Below, one piece after another: positions 27,445 to 29,787 of a DNA stretch of 64,000 nt. Origin of the DNA: Pseudomonadota bacterium (lineage in GTDB: Bacteria > Pseudomonadota > Gammaproteobacteria > UBA5335). Within the stretch, counting starts at the first letter, position 1. Each line of letters begins with the position of its first letter. Below the pieces are notes generated by a model. The model was given only the letters and a program-made list of their open reading frames with translations. It had not been told where the DNA came from and did not search any database. The stretch lies in assembly GCA_002862435.1 (NCBI GenBank), contig PKDC01000052.1, positions 41,997 to 105,996 of the forward strand, given 5' to 3'. A program made the translations under genes and the position numbers.

Positions 27445-29274
27445 ATGTGTGGCATCGTCGGCGCCATCGCGCAGCGCAATGTAACGCCCATCCTGCTGGA
27501 GGGCCTGCGGCGTCTGGAATACCGTGGCTATGACTCGGCTGGTGTGGTGATTCTGGGCGCTCAGGGCCTCCAGCGGGTGCGCACCGTGGGCAAGGTCGAG
27601 ATGCTGACGCAGGCGCTGGAAGCCCATCCGCTGGAGGGGCCGTTGGGTTTGGCTCACACCCGCTGGGCCACCCATGGCGCGCCGAGCGAACGCAACGCGC
27701 ACCCCCATATCGCCGCCGACCGCGTGGCGGTGGTGCACAACGGCATTATTGAAAATCATGCCGAGCTGCGCGCCGAGCTGCTGGCGCGCGGGGATCCGAT
27801 CGAATCCGACACCGATACCGAGCTGATCGCCCACCTGATCCACCATGCCCTCGATGACAGCGCCGACTTGCTCACTGCGGTGCGGGCCTGCCTCGCGCGC
27901 CTGCGCGGCGCCTACGCCATCGCGGTGATCGATCGTGCCGCGCCCGACCGGCTGGTGGTGGCGCGGTCGGGGAGTCCCTTGGTGATCGGCGTGGGTATCG
28001 GGGAGCACTTCGTGGCCTCCGACAGCGCTGCCCTGCTGCCGGTCACCCAGCAGTTCCGTTATCTGGAGGAAGGGGATGTCGCCGAGATCTGGCGCACCGG
28101 CGTGCGGGTGCTGGATCGATCAGGCCAAGCCGTGGAGCGTCCCCTGCTCCGTTCCCGCCTAGCCGATGAAACCCTCGACCGCGGCGCCTATCGCCATTTC
28201 ATGCTCAAGGAGATCCACGAACAACCCCGGGTGCTGGCCGAAACCCTGGAAGGCCGGTTGACGGCGGATCGGGTGTTGCCGGAGATGTTCGGCCCGGATG
28301 CCGAAACGCTGTTCAGCCAGGTGCGCGCGGTCCATCTGGTGGCTTGTGGCACCAGCTATCACGCCGCGCTGGTGGCGCGTTACTGGATCGAGGCCCTGAC
28401 GGGTATTCCGGCGACGGCGGAAATCGCCAGTGAATTCCGCTATCGCCAGCCGGCCGTGCCCGCCGATACTCTGCTGGTCACCCTATCCCAGTCGGGCGAG
28501 ACCGCCGATACCCTGGCCGCACTGCGGGCCAGTCGGGAGCGACCCTACCTGTCGCGCCTGGCCATCTGCAACGTGCCGGAAAGCTCGCTGGTGCGGGAAT
28601 CGGATCGCGTGTTGATGACCCGCGCCGGGGTGGAAGTCGGAGTCGCCTCCACCAAGGCGTTCACCACCCAGTTGGTGGCGTTGATGCTGCTCACCCTCTG
28701 CATCGGCCAGGCCCAATCGCTGGCGCCGGAGGAAGTCGCCCGCATCGTGACCGATCTGCGCAGCCTGCCCCAGCAGGTGGAGCGCGTGCTCGCTCTGGAG
28801 CCCGCTGTTGCCGCCCTGGCCCCGCGCCTGGTGCATCGCGAACACGCCCTGTTCCTGGGGCGTGGGGTGGAATACCCGATCGCCCTGGAAGGTGCCCTCA
28901 AGCTCAAGGAAATCTCCTACATCCACGCCGAGGGCTATGCGGCCGGCGAACTCAAGCACGGCCCCCTGGCTTTGGTGAGCGAGGATATGCCCGTGGTGGC
29001 GTTGGCGCCACACAATGCCCTGCTGGAAAAACTGCTCTCCAACCTGCAGGAAGTACGCGCGCGGGGCGGGGAGTTGCTGGTGTTCACCGGCGAGGGAGTG
29101 GACCTGCCGGATGAACAGGGCGTGGCCGTGCTGTCCCTGCCGGTTCCCTTGTCGGCGCTGTCGCCGGTGGTGTTCACGGTGCCCTTGCAACTGCTCGCCT
29201 ATCACGTCGCGGTTCTCAAGGGCACCGATGTCGACCGGCCGCGCAATCTCGCGAAATCGGTGACGGTCGAATAA
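27445..29274 (+). CDS. glmS: Glutamine-fructose-6-phosphate aminotransferase GlmS
   Basis: MCGIVGAIAQRNVTPILLEGLRRLEYRGYDSAGV ... LKGTDVDRPRNLAKSVTVE. Confidence 0.97.
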   Translation: MCGIVGAIAQRNVTPILLEGLRRLEYRGYDSAGVVILGAQGLQRVRTVGKVEMLTQALEAHPLEGPLGLAHTRWATHGAPSERNAHPHIAADRVAVVHNGIIENHAELRAELLARGDPIESDTDTELIAHLIHHALDDSADLLTAVRACLARLRGAYAIAVIDRAAPDRLVVARSGSPLVIGVGIGEHFVASDSAALLPVTQQFRYLEEGDVAEIWRTGVRVLDRSGQAVERPLLRSRLADETLDRGAYRHFMLKEIHEQPRVLAETLEGRLTADRVLPEMFGPDAETLFSQVRAVHLVACGTSYHAALVARYWIEALTGIPATAEIASEFRYRQPAVPADTLLVTLSQSGETADTLAALRASRERPYLSRLAICNVPESSLVRESDRVLMTRAGVEVGVASTKAFTTQLVALMLLTLCIGQAQSLAPEEVARIVTDLRSLPQQVERVLALEPAVAALAPRLVHREHALFLGRGVEYPIALEGALKLKEISYIHAEGYAAGELKHGPLALVSEDMPVVALAPHNALLEKLLSNLQEVRARGGELLVFTGEGVDLPDEQGVAVLSLPVPLSALSPVVFTVPLQLLAYHVAVLKGTDVDRPRNLAKSVTVE

Positions 29275-29308
29275 AAGCAACAAGCGCATTGGCTGTTGCT
29301 GTGGGATG

Positions 29309-29366
29309 AAAATAAAGTGTCATCCGTACAAATAAAGTCTCATCCTTGAGAATAGAGTTTCATCCT
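29309..29366 (+). repeat. Three direct ~17-bp repeats at ~20-bp spacing (TnsB-site-like)
   Basis: aaaataaagtgtcatcc / caaataaagtctcatcc / agaatagagtttcatcct. Confidence 0.85.
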
Positions 29367-29445
29367 AAAAATGATCCTTACTGGCCTCGATTGTGGTTGG
29401 CGAGACGCGCAAGACCGCATGAACTAAGCGATTCGGCTGCTTGGA

Positions 29446-29594
29446 AGGATGAAACTATATTCTCACAATCAAGACAGCGCCCAACGCCAAACGATGCTTT
29501 GAGGATGACTGTTTACCCGGCCGCCAAGCCTGAGACTTCCACGCCAGCCCACGAAATTCGCGCAGCTTAGGATGAAACTTATTTTCATCCCACA
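29446..29594 (-). repeat. Opposite-oriented copies of the same repeat, widely spaced
   Basis: aggatgaaactatattctca (29446), gaggatgactgtttacc (29501, degenerate), aggatgaaacttattttcatcccaca (29569-29594). Confidence 0.75.
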
Positions 29595-29787
29595 GCCGCC
29601 GCGCATCCATACCCAGAAATGGTTTCTGGGGCTTGACGTGATGCGGGTAGACCTCGATTTTGACAACTGCATCACCAATGTGGTGACCGACGGCGGCGTG
29701 GTCGGCAACGTCCAGGCTTCCGATGCGCGGGTCAAGGTCGAGGCCGATCCGTATATCTACACCCTGAGCCTGGGCCGGGTGTTCTGA
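29595..29787 (+). pseudogene. C-terminal fragment of OmpW-family outer membrane protein
   Basis: RIHTQKWFLGLDVMRVDLDFDNCITNVVTDGGVVGNVQASDARVKVEADPYIYTLSLGRVF* matches an OmpW C-terminal strand pattern; 5' part absent. Confidence 0.65.

Follow-up and report, generated by a model that had tools for sequence, protein, structure and literature searches.

Introduction

Directly behind a glmS gene lies a 295-bp sequence that has the two ends of a Tn7-like transposon and no gene between them, and the question raised by this locus is what such a sequence is and how it came to be there. Tn7 itself is directed to this position by TnsD, which binds the 3′ end of glmS, and it inserts with a 5-bp duplication and in a fixed orientation (PMC2918618). 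The original prediction, made for the whole 64,000-nucleotide stretch of DNA analyzed here (the window), read the sequence as a mini Tn7-like element and left two origins side by side, namely, a MITE-like derivative or the relic of an internal deletion. We find the MITE-like origin to be the better fit, and put at roughly 88% the probability that a Tn7-like (TnsABCD/E) transposon gave rise to the element as a MITE-type, non-autonomous derivative, moved in trans by the TnsABCD proteins of a relative. The copy in the window is an old, probably immobile member of a family of MITE-type mini-Tn7s that has recently moved relatives.

Anatomy of the element

The original prediction placed a 295-bp element 25 bp past the glmS stop codon. 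Length and spacing stand, but position 29275, given as its start, is the first base after the stop, and the element proper starts at 29300 (Table 1). Its terminal inverted repeats (TGTGGGATGAAAATAA and TTATTTTCATCCCACA) are perfect over 16 bp, or reach 18 bp if the GC that flanks both sides by chance is counted; the 16-bp repeat occurs twice in the 64 kb and in none of 100 shuffles. Within two mismatches, the site consensus AATARAGTNTCATCC has six matches in the 64 kb, five of them inside the element, against an expectation of 0.20 per 64 kb and with none of 100 shuffles reaching six. The coordinates bear out the predicted layout, in which three repeats are packed next to glmS and three inverted ones are spread over the distal end, the right-type sites starting 20 bp apart and the left-type sites being distributed over about 140 bp. 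The outermost left-end site is short of one A (AATAA-GT), a defect that had gone unremarked, as had the ompW 3′ remnant beyond the element. The repeat core was also predicted to be common with that of the Tn7 TnsB sites (AATAAAGTCT), and this likeness is real; the Tn7 right end used for the comparison matched 110 E. coli records at 99% identity or more.

Table 1. Features of the glmS–ompW region of the window (window coordinates)
Feature	Position	Strand	Remarks
glmS (609 aa)	27445..29274	+	conserved 3′ end ...NLAKSVTVE, the expected TnsD-binding attTn7 target; compared with E. coli attTn7
Left flank, GTTGC	29295..29299		21–25 bp past glmS stop; expected spot of 5-bp duplication
Miniature Tn7-like element, 295 bp	29300..29594	+	right end adjoins glmS
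Right end, three tandem TnsB-type sites, 71 bp	29300..29370	+	homologous to right ends of tns-encoding elements
Right-end TnsB-type site 1 (AAATAAAGTGTCATCC)	29310..29325	+	sequence pattern
Right-end TnsB-type site 2 (AAATAAAGTCTCATCC)	29330..29345	+	sequence pattern
Right-end TnsB-type site 3 (GAATAGAGTTTCATCC)	29350..29365	+	sequence pattern
Central 58 bp, joining both ends	29371..29428		homologous in sister species and in P. kurunegalensis plasmid copy
Left end, three spread inverted TnsB-type sites, 166 bp	29429..29594	-	homology to Rms149 exonuclease element; A. lusitana site layout
Left-end TnsB-type site 3 (innermost)	29446..29461	-	sequence pattern
Left-end TnsB-type site 2 (degenerate, TAAACAGTCATCC)	29503..29515	-	sequence pattern
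Left-end TnsB-type site 1 (outermost), 1-bp deletion	29570..29585	-	sequence pattern
16 bp between element and ompW remnant	29595..29610		no alignment to relatives' ompW
ompW 3′ remnant	29611..29787	+	about 800 bp kept in sister species missing here

As predicted, neither tns genes nor cargo are present: the longest stop-to-stop frame in the 295 bp spans 84 codons. An autonomous Tn7-like transposon encodes TnsA, TnsB, TnsC and a target selector, and the element is thus not one. It does have the hallmarks of Tn7-like ends, that is, TGT...ACA termini and asymmetric TnsB-site arrays homologous to those of tns-encoding elements, and it is inserted at the Tn7 distance from glmS with its right end towards that gene. 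Being short, non-coding, bounded by terminal inverted repeats and provided with ends common to an autonomous parent, it also answers to the description of a MITE, although its own genome holds a single copy. Judged by its sequence, the element is a natural mini-Tn7 in which two TnsB-type ends are joined by about 58 bp.

Homology of the ends to full-length transposons

Bases 1–69 of the element are 86–93% identical to right ends belonging to elements with genes for TnsA, TnsB and TnsC and, wherever the retrieved stretch extends that far, for TnsD and TnsE as well. Such relatives occur in E. coli 873.10, Klebsiella pKPN-3967, P. alcaligenes, P. indoloxydans, A. simiae, A. lusitana and Halioglobus, among others, and several of them (E. 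coli, Aeromonas, Pseudomonas) sit at glmS with equal spacing. The R-type end adjoins glmS, in the predicted Tn7-like orientation. The absence of any full element with these ends had been named as an argument against the prediction; TnsABCDE elements with such ends are in fact found at glmS. In A. lusitana, a complete autonomous element of 12,768 bp, pieced together from two neighboring stretches of a single contig, starts 25 bp past glmS and is bounded by an exact GATGA duplication; its left-end sites, at roughly 10, 86 and 134 bp, occupy the same positions as those in the left end of the window element. The latter left end (about 166–167 bp) is 77% identical to its counterpart in a 1.1-kb exonuclease element carried by Rms149 and related plasmids; the copy of this exonuclease element in P. 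aeruginosa H15 has an exact GCATT duplication. Altogether, 16 loci with such ends lie 23–25 bp past glmS, 15 of them among 111 loci obtained with a search pattern that was blind to glmS. In viral contigs, the strict two-site pattern found none.

A second mini-element and the case against a relic

A plasmid of P. kurunegalensis (NZ_CP156902) carries, at an unrelated site, a mini-element that is 80% identical to that of the window over 294 bp. The 58-bp centers, which fall outside the parts common to tns-encoding or exonuclease elements, agree at 67%, with a score of 19 compared to a best of 7 in 2000 shuffles (0/2000 as good). The presence of one internal join at two unrelated places therefore indicates that the mini-element already had this join when it moved. 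The 295-bp subfamily nonetheless looks rare, since a whole-element search of 369 gammaproteobacterial genomes, in which few candidates were scored per genome, gave a strong match only in the element's own genome.

The plasmid copy weighs directly on the alternative that survives best, in which a full Tn7-like transposon at glmS lost its tns genes and cargo in place through an internal deletion that spared both ends. Such a relic would share the position and orientation of a full element, its degeneracy is what the window copy displays, and within the order no cognate autonomous partner came to light. An in-place deletion, however, does not give the identical internal join on an unrelated Pseudomonas plasmid, and other tns-less families with such ends are demonstrably mobile, so we consider a relic improbable. 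A MITE-type derivative, by contrast, is expected to show one deleted form at several independent sites, as is the case both for the 295-bp type (glmS and the plasmid) and for a 327-bp sister (12 sites).

Sister families without tns genes

Copies of the 327-bp family, 98.5–100% identical to one another, are found at 12 distinct sites on chromosomes and plasmids of Pseudomonas. Exact 5-bp duplications flank eight of the 12, and two of these eight copies, one each in P. oleovorans and P. alcaligenes, are exactly at attTn7. In P. alcaligenes NBRC 14159, the mini-element sits at one glmS, and another glmS is occupied by a full element, with a TnsB 99% identical to the E. coli one; in P. oleovorans, which has three 327-bp copies, no cognate TnsB was found. 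A 130-bp family is represented by two copies, both with exact duplications. Going by these sequences, the 327-bp family settles the class to which such elements belong, and this sister MITE family has moved recently.

Several other loci were noted in passing. A 7,202-bp element with similar ends and exact CCTCG duplications (L154 14001–21202; L053 548–7749) carries a restriction-modification/McrC-like set and, in the annotated E. coli copy, no tns genes; it resides inside an ICE in E. coli and is present in Kluyvera too. In Vreelandella aquamarina (L084 1958–2812), an 855-bp element at glmS, flanked by an exact ACTGC duplication, has only genes for a HigB-like toxin and an HTH antitoxin, and turns its left-type end towards glmS, the reverse of Tn7. 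The 1.1-kb exonuclease element (L039 9070–10167, L038 7077–8168, L109, L106) is found on many resistance plasmids, its mobility unannotated. In Ectothiorhodospira magna (L057), the attTn7 position after glmS holds a remnant of 30 bp, the near-palindrome TGTGGGATGAAACTTTATTTTCATCCCACA.

History in the lineage

Behind glmS, two congeners (G006 and G007) carry an intact ompW and no element, whereas a sister species (G008) has the element there (88% identity over 238 bp, 83% in the central 58 bp), with an intact ompW following. The downstream flank of the sister species is 95% identical to that of the window over 3.6 kb, so that the insertion is inherited and not a product of assembly contamination. 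These comparisons place the insertion before the split from the sister species. The copy in the latter is devoid of one right-end site and of the terminal 28 bp at the left end, and both copies are decaying.

The congeners also bear on the notion that the sequence is a conserved glmS terminator or regulatory repeat without transposon origin, which the original prediction had listed as a ground for doubt if fixed in all relatives. The element does lie directly after glmS and does contain inverted repeats, but it is missing at this position in both congeners, which refutes such a role; an Rfam scan of the element returned no family, its one weak terminator-like site is on the opposite strand and at chance level, and both of its ends match tns-encoding transposons, leaving this explanation with next to no probability. 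Equally negligible is an origin as a TIME (a miniature element derived from Tn3) or as a member of some other MITE class with a mere resemblance to Tn7 ends. TIMEs are of comparable size and make 5-bp duplications too but are defined by the 38-bp terminal repeats of the Tn3 family; the present element has 16-bp termini (TGTGGGATG...), with repeats that start TGTGGGAT and then give way to TnsB-type site arrays laid out as in tnsABC-linked ends, at the exact attTn7 position.

The flanks of the window element, GTTGC and GCCGC, do not form an exact 5-bp target duplication, as had been pointed out from the outset. A match of at least three of five bases arises by chance in about 12% of cases at the base composition of the window (own arithmetic), so that the observed 3/5 is uninformative. 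Beside the left end, most of ompW has been deleted (Table 1), although it is intact in the congeners. Because the ompW-side flank is deleted there, no target duplication is expected in this copy, and its absence can be used neither for nor against transposition. The junction near the left terminus could reflect recombination with a second copy, an adjacent deletion made by the transposase, or a plain deletion. The left flank reads GTTGT in the sister species, compared to GTTGC in the window; the highly diverged intergenic region after glmS in the congeners and the loss of the window's right flank bar a base-exact rebuilding of the empty site.

Proposed mobilization in trans and the missing partner

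In the mechanism that we propose, TnsA and TnsB of a full-length relative would bind both ends and excise the element, TnsC would link the TnsA/TnsB-bound element to the target selector, and TnsD, seated on the 3′ end of glmS, would steer insertion to a point some 25 bp beyond it, the right end turned towards the gene. Related TnsABC proteins would thus act in trans, together with TnsD for the attTn7 copies and possibly with TnsE for those on plasmids, and in the lineage of the window the cognate transposase would no longer be present, and the copy is decaying. What the data show is the anatomy, the kinship of both ends with autonomous elements, the placement at attTn7, the vertical inheritance and the recent movement of a sister MITE family with ends of this kind; that TnsABCD acting in trans was the mover is inferred, from the biology of Tn7.

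Some observations count against this explanation, namely, that neither the window copy nor its plasmid relative has a target duplication, that the outermost left-end site carries the 1-bp deletion, and that the only TnsB of the genome (contig C32) is merely 37–39% identical to the cognate type. The last protein is not an obvious mobilizer, as it belongs to another Tn7-like element, which lies at a second glmS and whose right end differs (TGTAGAAAAG..., sites AATAAAGTTyTATC); a search of the C32 stretch for the ends of the window element found none. With the sole TnsB so distant and part of another element, the partner of the window copy was either lost or never resident.

This second Tn7-like element extends over contigs C32 (L004) and C64 (L160), which overlap inside hsdR, and encodes TnsA, TnsB, TnsC, TnsD and a TnsE-like protein; its cargo consists of type I restriction genes. 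The right end of this element lies about 25 bp past the second glmS, itself 66% identical to the window's glmS. Since the bin is rated 6% contaminated, the element may belong to another organism.

A probable class of Tn7 passengers

Many insertion-sequence and Tn3-type families have known MITEs, but none derived from a Tn7-like transposon was found in the searchable open-access literature, where searches for Tn7-derived or non-autonomous Tn7-like miniature elements gave nothing relevant. A 2024 review of prokaryotic MITEs names Tn7 only to exemplify site-specific insertion, and in a survey of 6,549 Tn7-like transposons the words non-autonomous, remnant and MITE do not occur. Within the open-access literature, the assignment of such MITEs to Tn7-like transposition therefore appears to be new.

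More broadly, it seems likely that TnsABCDE-type transposons support a whole class of tns-less passengers, comprising MITEs of 130, 295 and 327 bp as well as short elements with an exonuclease, a HigBA-like toxin–antitoxin pair or a restriction system, that use the TnsD/TnsE pathway in trans, so that attTn7 and plasmids collect parasites of Tn7, an orphan 332-bp Pseudomonas MITE included. This orphan, found on clinical Pseudomonas plasmids, would thereby gain a candidate transposase. Natural mini-Tn7s should also reveal how much end sequence is sufficient for target-selected transposition, and they lead to the prediction that full elements are parasitized at their own attachment site.

Comparison with known systems

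The TnsABCDE elements of E. coli 873.10 and Aeromonas lusitana resemble the window element in their right ends (88% identity each), attTn7 position and orientation, and that of A. lusitana in its left-end layout as well; unlike the geneless window element, both encode tnsABCDE and cargo, which in E. coli includes the clpK/hsp20 heat-resistance genes and brings the A. lusitana element to 12.8 kb. Tn7 has in common with the window element the TGT...ACA termini, the AATAAAG-type TnsB sites, the attTn7 target and the right end at glmS, but its TnsA–E proteins are only 24–44% identical to those of the cognate type, and the sites of the window element depart from Tn7 sites beyond the AATAAAGT core.

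Among elements without tns genes, the 1.1-kb Rms149 type has both ends homologous to those of the window element but, in contrast to it, carries one 3′–5′ exonuclease gene (RNase_T domain) between them. The P. kurunegalensis mini-element differs in being on a plasmid, away from glmS, and in its mutated outer left terminus. A text search with the terminal repeat led to a 2018 report of a 332-bp element in P. aeruginosa (pS04 90, strain Carb01 63), called probably an undescribed MITE with no transposase named and Tn7 unmentioned (PMC6133989). It shares its 29-nt terminal repeat with the 327-bp family and, like that family, occurs in several copies without a transposase gene; the 295-bp element of the window is a subfamily apart, with a different center. 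Finally, a parallel from the laboratory is the engineered mini-Tn7, whose 166-bp left and 90-bp right ends (PMC2918618) are similar in length to those of the window element (166 and 71 bp).
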